Positions 2,829 to 54,081 of a stretch of DNA of 64,000 nucleotides are shown here, one piece after another. Location: contig NZ_CP156688.1 in the NCBI RefSeq assembly GCF_040616545.1, forward strand, positions 124,001-188,000, written 5' to 3'. Every line of letters begins with the position of its first letter. Positions within the stretch are counted from its first letter, which is position 1. A program made the position numbers and the translations under genes. The notes under the pieces are model-generated. The model did not search any database. It was not told where the DNA came from and saw only the letters and a program-made list of their open reading frames with translations. The DNA comes from Akkermansia muciniphila. Lineage in GTDB: Bacteria > Verrucomicrobiota > Verrucomicrobiia > Verrucomicrobiales > Akkermansiaceae.

Positions 2829-5468
2829 ATGACTTCGGACGCACCACCCATGCCCGGCGGCAATCTGCCGACGCTGCCCGTCAAGCGGGTGGTGCGTCCC
2901 ACTCCTTCCATCCCGGACCATGAAGTCGTGCGCCAGATAGGCAGCGGCGCTTACGGGGAAGTCTGGCTGGCCCGCTCCCTGACCGGGGCATGGCGCGCCG
3001 TAAAAATCGTCTGGAGGGAGGATTTTGAGGACGAGCGCACCTTCAACCGGGAGTTTGAGGGCATCCTGCAGTATGAGCCCATCGCCCGCAACCATCCGGG
3101 GCTGGTCCACATTCTGCACGTAGGGAGGCACGACCAGGATTCCCCGTTTTACTATTACGTCATGGAGCTGGGCGACGACGCCCGCACGGGCGTCCATATC
3201 ACGCCGGACGAGTATATTCCCCGCACGCTCCAGACGGACAAGAAGTTTTCCGGCAACAAGCCCCTGCCGCTGGATTACTGCCTGGAGGTAGGCAGCCAAT
3301 TGGCCCACGCCCTGCTGTACCTGCACAGCAAGAACCTGACGCACCGGGACATCAAGCCGGCGAACGTCATCTTCGTCAACGGGCGGCCCAAGCTGGCGGA
3401 CATCGGCCTGGTGGCCCATCTGGACCAGCGCAGCTTTGTGGGCACGGAGGGGTTCATCCCCCCGGACGGCCCCGGCACCCGGCGGGCGGACGTTTACGCC
3501 CTGGCCAAGGTTTTATATGAGATCAGCACGGGAAAGGACCGCATGGATTTTCCCGAACTTCCGGATGACCTGCCGGAAGGCACCGTGCGCAAGAAGTGGC
3601 AGGCGTTCAACACGATCATCTGCCAGGCGGCGGAACCCCGCGTAGAGGAATGCACCATTGATTCCGCGGAAGAGCTGGCGGAAAAGATAGACGCCCTGCG
3701 GGGGTATGAAGTGCCTTCCCGCTTCCGCCTTCATAAGAAAAAGAAGCGCCGCAAGCTCAGGCGCACCCTCCAGCTGCTGGCCGCGGCCGTAGCCGGGGCT
3801 TTCACCGCGTACTGGGGGGCCCTGTGGCTCAACAACAGCCAGCATCTTCCGGAAGAACCCGCCGCAGACGTCCGCCAGGACCCCCAGGCCGCCAACCCGG
3901 AGGAGGAATCCCGGACCGGGTACGTTCTGGTGACCAGCTCCCCGGCGGGAGCGTCCGTATATGATGCGGACGGCAATTACCTGGATGAAACGCCCTACGG
4001 CCCCATTGAGCTGCCCTCCGGCGCTTCCGTGGCTTATACCATCAAGAAATCGGGCTTCGCGGACAAAGAGGAGGCGGGCACCGTCAAGGGCGGCTCCACG
4101 CTGGCCCTGGGCGGCGTGCTGAAGGAGTACCATCCCCCCACGGACAGCCAGCCGTGGAAAGACACGGAGGGAGTCACGTACCTGCCCGCGGAAACGCGCC
4201 ACGTGGCGCAAGGCCCCCTCACCGCCGCTCTGTTCAACAAGTTCCTGAAGGAGGACCGCCAGAAGGGGAACTACCAGATGAAACGGGAACAGACGGAACC
4301 GGGCCATCCGGAGAAGGACGTGGCCCTGCTCACGCAGGACGGCATCACGGCCTACCTGGCATGGCTGAACAAGAAATGCGAACGGGAGGGGCTGCTGGGC
4401 AAGGAATTCTCCATCAATGCGGACCCTCTTCCGCAAACATCCGGAGGCACGGACGGCCACAGCGCCTACGTCCTGAACGTCACCCGCGTGTTCCAGGTCC
4501 CCATCACCGTCACCACCAATCCGCCGGGAGCCAGCGTCTTTTTCAACAACAGGCTGATTGGCCGCACGCCCATTGAGGAATACGTCAACCAGGTACCCTA
4601 CGTGATTGAAATCAAACTGCCGGGGCATGCCACCATGCGGCGCCGGGGGCTGGACCCGCAGGATTTATACCTTTCCCTCCAGCTGGAGCCGGACAAATCC
4701 GTGATCTTCGGCTCACCCTGGACCAACAGCCTGGGCATGCAGATGGCCCCGGTAGGGGGAAACGCCCTGGTCATGTCCCATGAGGTGCGCGTGAAGGATT
4801 TCCAGCAGTTCCTGAAAGCCACGGGGAGGAAAGCCCCGGCCCGGCCCGGCTTCCCCCAGGGGGAGAACCACCCGGTGGTGAACGTCAGCAGGCAGGACGC
4901 GCGCGCCTTTGCCACATGGCTTACCAACAAGGAACGGGCCCAGGGGCTGATTGACCAGCACGATTCCTACCGCCTGCCTACGGACGAGGAATGGAGCTCC
5001 TGGGTGCGCCTGACGGATGAAAAGGGGTCCTCCCCCTATGAAAAGACGCTGCCTCATGAAAACTCCCGGGAGGTGTTCCCGTGGGGTTACTCATGGCCGC
5101 CGCCGGATAAAACAGGCAATTTTGCGGACCAGTCCGCCCTGATTTACCTTCCTTCCTCCCGCGTCATCGTGGGGTATGAGGACGGACAGCCGTATACGGC
5201 GCCCGTGAAGACCTTCCCGCCCAACCACCTGGGCCTGTATGACCTGGAGGGGAACGTCATGGAATGGGTGGACGATTCCTACGGAGGGCCGGAATCCCTC
5301 CCCATCCGCAACTACGGCGTAGCCCGCGGAGGCAGCTACCTCTCCTTCCGCCCCAAGCAGCTCACTACTTCCATCCGCACCCCCCTGCCGGAAAATACAC
5401 GGGATAACGCGCTCGGCTTCCGCCTCATCCTGTCTTCCGACCGTCCCGCCGCCCCCACGGCCCCCTGA
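2829..5468 (+). CDS. Membrane Ser/Thr protein kinase with PEGA repeats and C-terminal FGE-like domain
   Basis: This 879-residue protein has an N-terminal cytoplasmic Hanks-type kinase (about 30-300): glycine loop GSGAYGEVW, ATP lysine Lys59 and catalytic HRDIKPAN at 172-179. The metal-binding DFG is DIG (Asp191), which keeps the Asp. A basic stretch and one membrane segment (about 313-334) follow, then two extracytoplasmic PEGA repeats (about 364-420 and 557-606; TSSPAGASVY and TNPPGASVFF). The end (about 630-870) is a formylglycine-generating-enzyme-like C-type lectin fold (RLPTDEEW, LYDLEGNVMEWVDD, ARGGSY). The cysteines that sulfatase maturases carry after GGS are absent, so it is probably a binding or sensor domain. 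It lies 14 bases after kbl. Confidence 0.88.
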   Translation: MTSDAPPMPGGNLPTLPVKRVVRPTPSIPDHEVVRQIGSGAYGEVWLARSLTGAWRAVKIVWREDFEDERTFNREFEGILQYEPIARNHPGLVHILHVGRHDQDSPFYYYVMELGDDARTGVHITPDEYIPRTLQTDKKFSGNKPLPLDYCLEVGSQLAHALLYLHSKNLTHRDIKPANVIFVNGRPKLADIGLVAHLDQRSFVGTEGFIPPDGPGTRRADVYALAKVLYEISTGKDRMDFPELPDDLPEGTVRKKWQAFNTIICQAAEPRVEECTIDSAEELAEKIDALRGYEVPSRFRLHKKKKRRKLRRTLQLLAAAVAGAFTAYWGALWLNNSQHLPEEPAADVRQDPQAANPEEESRTGYVLVTSSPAGASVYDADGNYLDETPYGPIELPSGASVAYTIKKSGFADKEEAGTVKGGSTLALGGVLKEYHPPTDSQPWKDTEGVTYLPAETRHVAQGPLTAALFNKFLKEDRQKGNYQMKREQTEPGHPEKDVALLTQDGITAYLAWLNKKCEREGLLGKEFSINADPLPQTSGGTDGHSAYVLNVTRVFQVPITVTTNPPGASVFFNNRLIGRTPIEEYVNQVPYVIEIKLPGHATMRRRGLDPQDLYLSLQLEPDKSVIFGSPWTNSLGMQMAPVGGNALVMSHEVRVKDFQQFLKATGRKAPARPGFPQGENHPVVNVSRQDARAFATWLTNKERAQGLIDQHDSYRLPTDEEWSSWVRLTDEKGSSPYEKTLPHENSREVFPWGYSWPPPDKTGNFADQSALIYLPSSRVIVGYEDGQPYTAPVKTFPPNHLGLYDLEGNVMEWVDDSYGGPESLPIRNYGVARGGSYLSFRPKQLTTSIRTPLPENTRDNALGFRLILSSDRPAAPTAP

Positions 5469-6652: not shown

Positions 6653-9406
6653 ATGCCAGCAGAAGAAGGCCATCCAGATGACCAGCCCCGGACGACAGGG
6701 CAAGTCCCGCCTCCCGCACCGACGACAGGCCTGGAACAGATTCTGCCCGGCCGCCCCCCTCTTCCCCATGCGGAAGAAAAAGGCGCCTTTTTCGTCTACC
6801 AGCGGGAGCTGGCGCCCGGCACGCGCCTGGAACAGTATGAAATCATCCGCGTCCTGGGCAGCGGAGGCTTCGGCATCACTTATCTGGCCAAGGACCTGTT
6901 CCTGAACCGCAACGTGGTCATCAAGGAAAACTTCCCCTCCAGCTGCTCCTACCGGGACCCGCTGACCGGGCACATCCGCCCCAACAATGAACACGACCTG
7001 GAAAATTACACCTGGGCCCTGAAAAGCTTCCTGAGTGAGGCTCAGACGCTGGCGGAACTCAACCATCCCGGCATCGTCAGGATCCTGTCCGTCTTTGAAG
7101 CCAACGGCACAGCCTACTTCGCCATGGAGCACATCACCGGGCTCTCCTTGGACTTTCTGGGGGAAAAGCTCCACAGCACGGGCCACCGTTACACGGAGGA
7201 TGAACTCAAGGGGCTGCTGACGCGCCTGCTCCGTATTCTGGACTACCTCCATTCCCGGCACATCTACCACCGTGACATCAAGCCCGGCAACATCCTGCTG
7301 ACGGAGGAGGGCACGCCCGTGCTGATCGACTTCGGCGCGGCGCGCCACGCCCTGAAGCTGCACGCCGCCACCGTCCTGACCACCCAGGGGTATTCCTCCC
7401 CGGAACAGGCTCTGGGAAAAACGAACATCGGCCCCTGGAGCGACCTTTATTCCGTGGGAGCCACCTTTTACGCCCTGCTCACGGGCCACCCGCCGGAACG
7501 GGCGGAAGTGCGCCTGGCGGAAGACGGCATGCAGCCCCTGCACAGTGATCCCGTGCTCACGCGCTTTTATTCCCGGCAGTTCCTGCTGTCCCTGGACAAG
7601 GCGCTCTCCCCCCAGATCAACTGCCGCTACCAGAACGCCCGGGAATGGATTCACGACATCTGCGCCATTTCCGGGGAGGAATCCTCCGCCACCATCCACC
7701 TGTCCCCGGCAGACATCCACTACATCCATCCGGAAGGGATGCCGCGCCCCTGCGCTGAAAAAAAATCCGGGAACAACAATCCCGCCGCCAGCCCGGGCGG
7801 CCTCCATTCCGCCTCCCGGAGGCTGTCGGCACGCACCCTCCGCCGCAACCGCCACATGATGTACCTGATGGTGGGCAGCGCCTGCACCCTTCTGCTGGCC
7901 GCCGGAGCGGTCTACCTGACGGACTACCTGAAAAAGGCCCCCATGGGCACCACCATCAACACCATCAAGGAAGCCATCCAGCAGCCCGCCGCCAATTCCA
8001 ATGGTCGGGAACTGCCGGCCCCACCCAGGGACCTGGCGTCCATCCGCATTCCGGAACTTAAAATGACGGAAGACGCGGCGCTGGAACCGCGAACGCTCCA
8101 GGAATTCCACCTGCGCCTTGATGATACGATCCTCACCCGCTCCGGCCTCCCCTCCATCCTGCCGGAAAAACTGCGCATCTCCTGCATTTATCTTCAAATC
8201 ACGCCGCCGCCCTCCGGCGGCGAGGAAATTCACCTCACCATCCGGGACTCCAACGGCGCCCTCGTGGACCGCTCCGTCAACCCGGTCCCCTCCTTCACGG
8301 TGCCGGGACAGTCCACCAGCACGTTCTTCTTCCCGTCCCTCCCGGAACTGTCCACGGACCGTGTTTACACGTACACCTTTGAAACCGCCACGCACAGGGC
8401 CGTTCCCATGCAAATGGCCTGTTTCAAAAGCGAGACGGAACGCACGGAAGAGGCGTTCCCCAAAATCCGTTTCATTGCCGCGCCGCCTGCGCCGGAGCCT
8501 GCCCTGCTGCATGACCCGGTTTACAAGGGGCTGGTGGCGGCGGTCACTACGCCAACACCGGGCCACGGAGACGTCCTGAACCATGCGGACGCCACACCGG
8601 ACACGCTGGCGGCCCTGGAGCAACTGGCCAGAGCCGGCTACCCCATTGCCCAGCAGGTACTGGGAAAAGCCCTCATGTCTCCGGACTGCCCCGGAGGCCC
8701 CCGGCCTGAAGAAGGCGTGGAATGGCTCTACCGTTCCGCCACCGGAGGATGCTACGAGGCCATGAAGGAGCTGGGCATCCTGCTCATGGACGTCCCCTCC
8801 TACTTCCCCCGCCTGCCCCAGCAGCCCCCGCTGGCCTCACGGGATTACGCCCAGGCGGCTCGGTTCCTGAGAATGGCCGTCCAGTACCGGGACCAGGAGG
8901 CCATGTACCTGCTCTCCCTCATGTACTCGCAGGGGTGGGGCGTGCCCGCTTCCTCGGAACTTTCCCGCCTCATGATGGAACGCCTCAACGGCTCCGGCTA
9001 CCTCACGGACAGCCTGAACCCCAGGGCGGACATTGCGGCGTACTGGCTCCCCCTGCCGCTCGCTTCAGGAGAATCCACCATCCTGCGGTTCACCATTCCG
9101 GGACCGTTTGCCCCCGCCCAGCTCAAGGGCGTCACGCTGCATAACACAGGCATGAAAGACGCCTTCTCCATCAGCAAGATCAACATTCTCCAGCACGGGC
9201 GCCTCATTCTGGACATCATCTCCCCCCAGGAAGTATTGCCCGGCAAAAGCTCCGCCCCCATCGGCATCTCCATCCCGGAAGGACTGCTGGCGGACACCTC
9301 CCTGCCCCTGGAGGTGGAAATACTGCTGACGCCCGGAGGCAGCACTGGCGTGGTGGAAATGCCCCCTCCGGCGGAAAAGCAACGTTCCAGAAATGGAACC
9401 AACTGA
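6653..9406 (+). CDS. Membrane Ser/Thr protein kinase with Sel1-like repeats
   Basis: This 917-residue protein has a proline-rich N-terminus of about 55 residues, then a complete kinase domain (about 62-340): GSGGFGITY, Lys91 (VVIKENFP), HRDIKPGN (206-213), DFG at Asp226 and a TTQGYSSPEQ activation segment. A membrane segment (about 402-425) separates it from an extracytoplasmic part. Residues about 645-770 look like Sel1-type helical repeats (ARAGYPIAQQVLGKAL, YLLSLMYSQGWGVP). The last 140 residues are beta-rich and not recognised. It shares membrane-kinase architecture with the kinase at 2829 but has different sensor domains. Substrates cannot be read from the sequence. Confidence 0.87.
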   Translation: MPAEEGHPDDQPRTTGQVPPPAPTTGLEQILPGRPPLPHAEEKGAFFVYQRELAPGTRLEQYEIIRVLGSGGFGITYLAKDLFLNRNVVIKENFPSSCSYRDPLTGHIRPNNEHDLENYTWALKSFLSEAQTLAELNHPGIVRILSVFEANGTAYFAMEHITGLSLDFLGEKLHSTGHRYTEDELKGLLTRLLRILDYLHSRHIYHRDIKPGNILLTEEGTPVLIDFGAARHALKLHAATVLTTQGYSSPEQALGKTNIGPWSDLYSVGATFYALLTGHPPERAEVRLAEDGMQPLHSDPVLTRFYSRQFLLSLDKALSPQINCRYQNAREWIHDICAISGEESSATIHLSPADIHYIHPEGMPRPCAEKKSGNNNPAASPGGLHSASRRLSARTLRRNRHMMYLMVGSACTLLLAAGAVYLTDYLKKAPMGTTINTIKEAIQQPAANSNGRELPAPPRDLASIRIPELKMTEDAALEPRTLQEFHLRLDDTILTRSGLPSILPEKLRISCIYLQITPPPSGGEEIHLTIRDSNGALVDRSVNPVPSFTVPGQSTSTFFFPSLPELSTDRVYTYTFETATHRAVPMQMACFKSETERTEEAFPKIRFIAAPPAPEPALLHDPVYKGLVAAVTTPTPGHGDVLNHADATPDTLAALEQLARAGYPIAQQVLGKALMSPDCPGGPRPEEGVEWLYRSATGGCYEAMKELGILLMDVPSYFPRLPQQPPLASRDYAQAARFLRMAVQYRDQEAMYLLSLMYSQGWGVPASSELSRLMMERLNGSGYLTDSLNPRADIAAYWLPLPLASGESTILRFTIPGPFAPAQLKGVTLHNTGMKDAFSISKINILQHGRLILDIISPQEVLPGKSSAPIGISIPEGLLADTSLPLEVEILLTPGGSTGVVEMPPPAEKQRSRNGTN

Positions 9407-52500: not shown

Positions 52501-54081
52501 ATGAACAAAACCGCATTACACCTGATGCTGGCCCTGGCGGCGGCAGCGGCCTGCCCGGCCGCCACCACGCCCAAGGTCAAGCCGCCCAAAGCCATCGTCA
52601 TGATTTACGCTGACGACCTCGGCTACGGGGACGTAGGCTGTTATGGAGCCAAGGGGATTCCCACCCCTTCCATTGACAAGCTCGCCAAGCAGGGCGTCCG
52701 CTTCACGGATGCCTATTCCACCACCTCCGTCTGCACCCCCTCCCGCTATGCCCTGTTTACCGGGGAATATCCGTGGCGCAAGGAAGGCACGGGCATTCTG
52801 CCGGGGGACGCCGCCCTGATTATTGACACCAAGAAGCCCACACTGCCCAAGATGCTCCAGTCCCACGGCTACAAGACCTACATGGTAGGCAAGTGGCACC
52901 TGGGCCTGGGGGAAAAGGGAAAGAAGATTGACTGGAACAAGCACATCGCCCCCAGCCCGAACGAAATAGGCTTTGACGAAAGTTTCATCTTTGCCGCCAC
53001 GGGCGACCGCGTTCCCTGCGTGATTCTGGAAAACGGCAACGTCCGCAACCTGGACCCGAACGACCCCATTGAAGTGTCCTACCAGCGCAACTTCCCGGGA
53101 CTGCCCAACGGCAAGGATAACAAGGACCTGCTCAAGCTCATGTGGAGCCACGGCCACAACCAGGCCGTCATCAACGGCATCGGACGCATCGGCTTCATGA
53201 AGGGCGGCAAGAGCGCCCTGTGGAAGGACGAGGAAAACGCGGACGTGATCACGAAAAAGGCCATTGAATACATCCAGAAGAGCGCCAAGGCCAAGGAACC
53301 GTTCTTCCTGATGTTCGCCACGCATGACATCCACGTGCCCCGCTGCCCGGAAAAACGCTTTGTGGGCAAGAGCCAGCACGGCGTGCGCGGCGACGTGACC
53401 GTGGAACTGGACGACTGCGTCCAGCGCATCACGGAAGCCCTGCAAAAAGCCGGCCTGGAAAAGGACACCCTGGTGATCTTCTCCAGCGACAACGGCCCCG
53501 TGCTTGACGACGGCTACAAGGATTTTGCCGTGCGGGACAATGCCACCCACTCCCCCGCCGGACCCTTCCGCGCCGGCAAGTACAGCATTCTGGAAGGCGG
53601 TTCCCGCATCCCGTTCATCGTCAAATGGCCCGGAGTGGTCAAGCCCGGAACCACCAGCAAGGCCCTGTTCAACCAGATGGACCTGGCTGCCTCCCTGGAA
53701 CAACTGCTGGAACCCGGCAAGGCCAACTCCTTCCGCGACTCTGAAAACGTGATGCCCGCCCTGCTGGGCAAATCCGCCAAGGGCCGCGACTACCACGTCA
53801 TCAACAGCACCGGCAAGGCGCTGGCCATCCGCCACGGCAAGTGGAAGTTCATTCCCGCCGGCGTAGCCATCCGCGACGGGATTAGCGGACTGGGAGCAAA
53901 GATGAGCAAGTCCCCGGAAGGCGGCAGCCTGTTTGACCTGGAAAAGGACCCCAAGGAACTCAACAACGTGGCCGCCCAGCATCCGGACATTTGCGAACAG
54001 ATGAAGGCCAAGCTCCAGGAAATCCGCCAAAGGCCGGAAACCAAGGCTGACCTGGTGGACCTGCTTCCCCTGGACGACTAA
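52501..54081 (+). CDS. Secreted arylsulfatase-type sulfatase
   Basis: This 526-residue enzyme has a signal peptide (NKTALHLMLALAAAAACPA) from ATG 52501. Alkaline-phosphatase superfamily motifs are IYADDLGYGDVGCYG (metal), the Cys-type formylglycine site SVCTPSRYALFTGEY (Cys78), GKWHLG and SSDNGP. Cys78 must be oxidised to formylglycine to work. Substrates of such sulfatases in gut bacteria include mucin and glycosaminoglycan sulfates. It follows the AI-2E gene by 58 bases. Confidence 0.94.
   Translation: MNKTALHLMLALAAAAACPAATTPKVKPPKAIVMIYADDLGYGDVGCYGAKGIPTPSIDKLAKQGVRFTDAYSTTSVCTPSRYALFTGEYPWRKEGTGILPGDAALIIDTKKPTLPKMLQSHGYKTYMVGKWHLGLGEKGKKIDWNKHIAPSPNEIGFDESFIFAATGDRVPCVILENGNVRNLDPNDPIEVSYQRNFPGLPNGKDNKDLLKLMWSHGHNQAVINGIGRIGFMKGGKSALWKDEENADVITKKAIEYIQKSAKAKEPFFLMFATHDIHVPRCPEKRFVGKSQHGVRGDVTVELDDCVQRITEALQKAGLEKDTLVIFSSDNGPVLDDGYKDFAVRDNATHSPAGPFRAGKYSILEGGSRIPFIVKWPGVVKPGTTSKALFNQMDLAASLEQLLEPGKANSFRDSENVMPALLGKSAKGRDYHVINSTGKALAIRHGKWKFIPAGVAIRDGISGLGAKMSKSPEGGSLFDLEKDPKELNNVAAQHPDICEQMKAKLQEIRQRPETKADLVDLLPLDD

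Follow-up and report, generated by a model that had tools for sequence, protein, structure and literature searches.

The window, a 64,000-nucleotide stretch of the complete, single-contig 3.06-Mb genome of an Akkermansia muciniphila strain, contains a gene for an 879-amino-acid protein in which a Hanks-type kinase is joined through a predicted membrane helix to an ectodomain built of PEGA domains and domains of the formylglycine-generating enzyme (FGE) family (Table 1). The order of kinase, membrane helix, PEGA and FGE is that described in the initial annotation, which had been made from the letters of the DNA. A contig of A. muciniphila CSUN-56 (AmIII) matches the window protein at 100% over residues 1–879.

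Table 1. Features of the kinase–FGE gene, in window positions, with the basis of each assignment where one applies.
Feature	Residues	Position	Strand	Basis or remark
Whole gene: membrane Hanks-type kinase with PEGA / half-FGE / PEGA / FGE ectodomain	879 aa	2829..5468	+	
Cytoplasmic protein kinase domain (predicted location)	22–292	2892..3704	+	Pfam, conserved residues, PknB fold match (Z 26.1)
DIG motif at the DFG site	191–193	3399..3407	+	Alignment A1
Predicted membrane helix, N side basic	about 314–334	3768..3830	+	
PEGA1	361–435	3909..4133	+	Profile–profile match to PEGA2, 99.5%
Truncated FGE domain, N-terminal half only (half-FGE)	436–553	4134..4487	+	Profile comparison, model
PEGA2	554–622	4488..4694	+	Pfam, profile comparison, model
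Full FGE / C-type-lectin-fold domain, cysteine-free	623–870	4695..5438	+	
GGSYLSF loop, Ser839 at the presumed first FGE Cys site	834–840	5328..5348	+	

We searched 97 genomes for homologues, the source genome included (59 of the genus and 38 at order level), and found strong matches (E below 1e-130) to the kinase–FGE protein in 48 of the 59 genus genomes. The other 11 (G001, G003, G006, G019, G022, G030, G031, G032, G041, G050 and G057) are draft assemblies of roughly 40 to 230 contigs, so either the assemblies miss the gene or these bacteria can do without its function. Forty-eight genus loci were retrieved, counting the source genome's own copy; 45 entered alignment A1 (the own copy, L006, and L009 and L033 were left out), which together with 22 order-level loci from 21 of the 38 order-level genomes and the window protein itself comprises 68 rows. 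Full-length relatives thus aligned also come from other families of the order. In a sample of 288 genomes of the phylum, the matches listed that cover nearly the whole ectodomain profile come from the genus, family or order, and those listed from further away cover chiefly the FGE part.

Pfam Pkinase matches residues 32–237 with 77 bits, above the gathering cut-off, and the Lys, Glu, HRD Asp, Asn and DxG Asp that are invariant in Hanks-type kinases are present in every row: K59, E75, H172, D174, K176, N179, D191 and G193 do not vary across the 68 sequences. The Arg of HRD is replaced by Cys in six rows. The DIG in place of DFG that the initial annotation had pointed out is where it placed it, and it is part of a wider pattern, as residue 192 is Ala in 31 rows, Ile in 28, Val in 7, Met in 2 and never Phe, a replacement that may alter the regulation of the kinase. 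The activation loop contains an invariant T206 and, in 60 of 68 rows, Ser or Thr at position 202. The predicted fold superposes on that of PknB (Z 26.1, rmsd 2.5 over 240 residues), and the family model for PASTA kinases, NF033483, matches only the kinase part (63.5 bits against a cut-off of 450). Because the catalytic residues are intact and the predicted fold is PknB-like, we expect the kinase to be active; an inactive kinase fold, named in the initial annotation as one result that would count against its reading, is not what residues and prediction indicate. We think it highly improbable that the protein is a pseudokinase receptor with a catalytically dead kinase domain: the DFG Phe is replaced in all aligned members and the same genome encodes a related FGE protein whose kinase-like part lacks the motifs, but Lys59, Glu75, Asp174, Asn179 and Asp191 are kept in 68 of 68 rows.

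The predicted membrane helix is preceded by nine Lys or Arg in 15 residues and followed by one in 15, and on this charge pattern the kinase should lie inside the cell and the FGE domain in the periplasm. A topology rule that combines a hydropathy over 1.6 with more Lys and Arg before the helix than after it is satisfied by 55 of 68 rows; the window protein, at 1.59, falls under the hydropathy threshold and has a clear charge pattern. The initial annotation had proposed a sensor outside, perhaps for glycans or peptidoglycan, that signals to a kinase inside. The topology fits this proposal, except that the ectodomain, being expected in the periplasm, would not face the exterior directly.

Both of the PEGA repeats recognized at the outset are present. 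Pfam PEGA (PF08308) identifies PEGA2 at residues 559–606 (51.7 bits against a cut-off of 20.8), and PEGA1, which has no Pfam match at E 0.01, was identified by profile comparison by itself (Table 1). Between them lies a segment that the initial annotation did not mention, the profile of which matches the N-terminal part of the FGE domain with a probability of 99.4%; the maximum for 30 column-shuffled control profiles was 2.1%, and the cross-comparisons of half-FGE with PEGA2 and of PEGA1 with FGE gave 0.2%. As PEGA1 resembles PEGA2 and the half-FGE resembles the N-terminal part of the FGE domain, the profiles indicate that the ectodomain is a tandem duplication, [PEGA–half-FGE][PEGA–FGE], in which the first FGE copy is without its C-terminal half. 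The arrangement is retained in all 68 rows, in each of which the half-FGE measures 103–140 residues against 236–284 for the full domain. The half-FGE to FGE match recurs at 99.3% in both order-level subsets compared, one of 12 and one of 10 rows; in the smaller of these the PEGA1–PEGA2 match is weaker (93.3% over 30 columns), and PEGA1 is only 42–47 residues long in four of its ten sequences.

The whole chain was predicted with a mean pLDDT of 83. A fold search with this model listed kinases only, and the ectodomain (residues 361–872) was therefore folded and searched separately, with an alignment of 58 of the 68 rows (A2) as input, giving a mean pLDDT of 91.4. The closest fold matches were PvdO (Z 22.9), Treponema TvpA (Z 22.5) and PorK (Z 21.2), with human and bacterial FGE at about Z 20; these matches lie over the FGE domain and say little about the PEGA domains and the half-FGE.

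By its predicted fold and by its match to Pfam FGE-sulfatase (PF03781; residues 648–867, 96 bits, above the gathering cut-off), the C-terminal domain belongs with the formylglycine-generating enzymes. That it is the two-cysteine copper enzyme is excluded, because the domain has no cysteine: the four in the protein (residues 151, 265, 275 and 517) all lie elsewhere. Residues 839 and 844 occupy what we take to be the positions of the two catalytic, copper-binding cysteines of FGE, the first of them in the GGS loop. In the 68 rows, residue 839 is Ser in 52, Asp in 7, Thr in 7, Val in 1 and Gly in 1, and residue 844 is Gln in 46, Glu in 8 and one of nine other residue types in the remainder, so that neither presumed site holds Cys in any orthologue; cysteine occurs elsewhere in the loop in three rows, and two of these cysteines are in L040. 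The absence of the catalytic cysteines from GGSYLSF, reported in the initial annotation, therefore extends to all 68 aligned rows, and its conclusion that the protein cannot mature sulfatases is borne out as far as the two-cysteine copper enzyme is concerned. The structure prediction that it had proposed as a check returned an FGE fold, and an active site with both cysteines is excluded in a cysteine-free domain. We accordingly ruled out a role as sulfatase maturase.

The full motif RGG[DS][YW]xSFRPxQL is found in 37 of 68 rows, which argues that the former active-site loop has been retained for a different role and has not decayed. The kept motif, and the position of PvdO as the closest fold match, would also suit a domain that is still an enzyme of another kind, in the manner of PvdO or of EgtB relatives that do without the FGE cysteine pair. 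We give this possibility a slim chance, given that no catalytic or metal-binding set was identified in the FGE domain and that the PvdO family model (NF051459) scores 52.1 bits against a cut-off of 500.

The initial annotation had further reasoned that the secreted sulfatase of this window (frame at 52594–53706) needs a maturase that must be elsewhere. The complete genome offers no support for this. PF00884 has 17 matches in 16 frames of the genome, and 13 of the 16 frames, the window sulfatase included, carry the C-x-P-x-R motif of Cys-type sulfatases. All five FGE-family domains found in the genome are without the cysteine pair, and no anSME scores above its cut-off (best 48 against 349 bits). 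The 12 radical-SAM matches, judged by sequence, look like members of families other than anSME. Ten were scanned as whole proteins, and eight of these were assigned above cut-off to a different family (MiaB, TIGR04053, pyruvate formate-lyase activase, RimO, NrdG2, lipoyl synthase, RlmN and ThiH), with a NirJ1/AhbC-like and a QueE-like protein below the cut-off of their best family; of the last two matches, one, scanned as a 175-residue piece, is HemW-like and below cut-off, and one is BioB by eye from its sequence. Across the genus, anSME was found above cut-off in 1 of 76 genomes, and the other radical-SAM/SPASM matches reach at most 118 bits, one third of the anSME cut-off. With 13 Cys-type sulfatases and neither an FGE with the cysteine pair nor an above-cut-off anSME, the sulfatases of this genome either go without modification or are matured by an unknown route.

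The available text of a review (PMC13341924, citing Kim et al. 2022) attributes anSME and high sulfatase activity to some A. muciniphila strains, and that of PMC10540074 describes sulfatases as conserved genus-wide; the portions available of PMC12928629, PMC9067506, PMC11323728 and PMC13383068 contain nothing on sulfatase maturation in Akkermansia. What comes into focus is whether Cys-type sulfatases are activated at all in Akkermansia strains that have neither FGE nor anSME, and if so by what means. Two other loci were noted in this survey. One 859-residue frame (L078:1399-3978, at about 652700-654900 of G000:C1) joins a Cys-type sulfatase with an apparent signal peptide to a BioB-like sequence and is followed by a BioA-like gene (BioB and BioA by eye), possibly through loss of the stop codon between two genes. 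The other, L001:1-2292, codes for a large protein with CxxCH motifs (by eye), whose middle domain is hydrazine-synthase-alpha-like and whose FGE domain lacks the cysteine pair.

Selection on the kinase–FGE gene is purifying in all domains, as dN/dS does not exceed 0.143 for any domain across the six closest comparisons, and the architecture is therefore not a product of chance. Three more distant comparisons reach dN/dS values of 0.46 in the half-FGE and 0.31 in the FGE domain, with dS undefined or at 1.4–2.8, and are thus saturated. Mean identity to the window protein falls from 71% in the kinase to 57% in the FGE domain and 39% in the half-FGE among the 45 genus rows, and from 55% to 42% and 18% among the 22 order-level rows. 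As the kinase is more conserved than the FGE and half-FGE parts, the pattern is in keeping with an output that stays constant while the input varies.

We also considered whether the protein is a hypervariable target of a diversity-generating retroelement. Like the cyanobacterial kinase–CLec proteins described in the available part of PMC7517822, it has a kinase at the N-terminus and a C-type-lectin-fold (CLec) domain at the C-terminus, and the FGE domain shares the TvpA fold. However, the source genome has no match to the reverse transcriptase family PF00078 at E 0.001, in a search that found matches in 3 of 14 control genomes, and dN/dS over the whole FGE domain is 0.03–0.14 in the six closest comparisons. 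We rejected this candidate on both counts and assign it a vanishingly small probability.

The surroundings of the gene indicate no partner. Among 30 loci, surveyed with flanks of at most 1.5 kb and with several loci ending at contig ends, an aminotransferase gene lies upstream in 11 and a ParA gene downstream in 8; both are confined to the closest relatives, and we found no conservation of the neighbourhood beyond these. A partner defined by an operon was consequently dropped. Two genes downstream in the window, past the ParA-type gene, a second Hanks-type kinase of 917 amino acids is encoded at 6653–9406 (+); it seems by eye to have a membrane helix, and it matches a Sel1-like repeat below threshold.

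We consider it probable that the protein is a catalytically active membrane kinase and that its tandem PEGA–FGE part, without enzymatic function, acts in the periplasm as a binding module that regulates the kinase. It would be a single-pass inner-membrane Ser/Thr kinase with its catalytic domain in the cytoplasm. The full C-terminal FGE domain would most likely bind a periplasmic protein or an envelope ligand, and the PEGA domains and half-FGE could form a stalk that sets its distance from the membrane. For PknB-type kinases, control of trans-autophosphorylation through chain association has been proposed. By analogy, binding of the ligand or partner may alter the association of chains and so switch trans-autophosphorylation of the kinase; we infer this dimer-driven step, like the binding function itself, from architecture and analogy.

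An ectodomain that serves as a structural tether or scaffold, placing the kinase at an envelope complex with no sensing of a ligand, would resemble the FGE-fold lipoproteins GldK and PorK. The nearest solved relatives by profile are indeed PorK chains (E 3e-21), which structure titles place in a ring complex with PorN, and GldK is the second NCBIfam match. That match amounts to 61 bits against a cut-off of 350 (TIGR03525), however, and since the fused kinase is intact and conserved, the fusion suggests regulation over tethering. We regard a pure tether as unlikely and favour the regulated kinase.

The same genome encodes a second FGE-bearing protein that resembles a receptor. It has 511 amino acids (G000:C1:2833196-2834728 (-), equivalent to L005:1216-2748 (-)), a hydrophobic helix, an FGE part (98.8% by profile) and an N-terminal part that matches the kinase with 86%. 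A joint MAFFT alignment with its family was unusable over the kinase part, and profile comparison was used instead. The VAIK Lys and the HRD and DFG motifs are lost in the family members displayed. Because a Pfam scan detects no kinase in it, the label pseudokinase derives from the profile comparison by itself. The best match to this protein spans the kinase-like part and part of the FGE domain (to at least residue 357) in 51 of the 59 genomes of the genus and is shorter in the other eight. One could speculate that the active kinase and the 511-residue protein form a receptor pair, with their FGE domains, both lacking the FGE cysteine pair, outside the membrane and the half-FGE serving as a docking site or decoy. 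We hold such a pairing to be decidedly doubtful; if true, bacteria would have an equivalent of kinase/pseudokinase co-receptors.

Kinase–FGE fusions were already known, and the PEGA and half-FGE arrangement appears to be a new form among them. Neither a description of this kinase architecture nor a publication joining a PEGA domain, a kinase and Verrucomicrobia was found in the literature searched, which excluded bioRxiv and most subscription papers. A relative from another family of the same class (L254) has a kinase of the same subfamily (52% identity) and a single FGE domain (42% identity), with as many as four PEGA-like repeats, of which two have good support (98% and 92%) and two are weak (63% and 43%). 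The half-FGE profile matches only its one FGE domain, and because L254 has no half-FGE copy, this copy may be an elaboration of the order studied here or may have been lost in L254.

In overall layout the protein resembles mycobacterial PknB-type kinases, with a cytoplasmic kinase, one membrane helix and repeated extracytoplasmic domains, but the DFG site reads DIG or DAG in most of the aligned rows, and it carries PEGA and FGE domains where PknB has four PASTA domains (PMC3145798, available part). Chlamydia Pkn1, likened here by its description in the accessible text of PMC3581485, has an N-terminal kinase and a C-terminal PF03781 domain in one chain, as in our protein. The cyanobacterial kinase–CLec proteins, according to the same partial text of PMC7517822, are retroelement-diversified or paralogues of such proteins, the diversified ones are mostly predicted to be cytosolic, and their CLec domain is proposed to be autoinhibitory until a ligand is bound; in contrast, the window protein is conserved and membrane-spanning, and its genome is without a reverse transcriptase match. 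FGE domains are also proposed as CLec sensors in the part of PMC10907252 available.

The fold of the FGE domain is common to FGE/SUMF1, SUMF2, PvdO and PorK/GldK (Z 17–23); unlike the formylglycine-generating enzyme, the domain studied here is cysteine-free and attached to a kinase. Genes of this family are prone to annotation as sulfatase activators, and here the fold forms part of a membrane kinase. In the mucin-degrading Akkermansia and their order, the protein represents a conserved branch in which a cysteine-free FGE fold, a tandem module and a conserved half-domain occur together.
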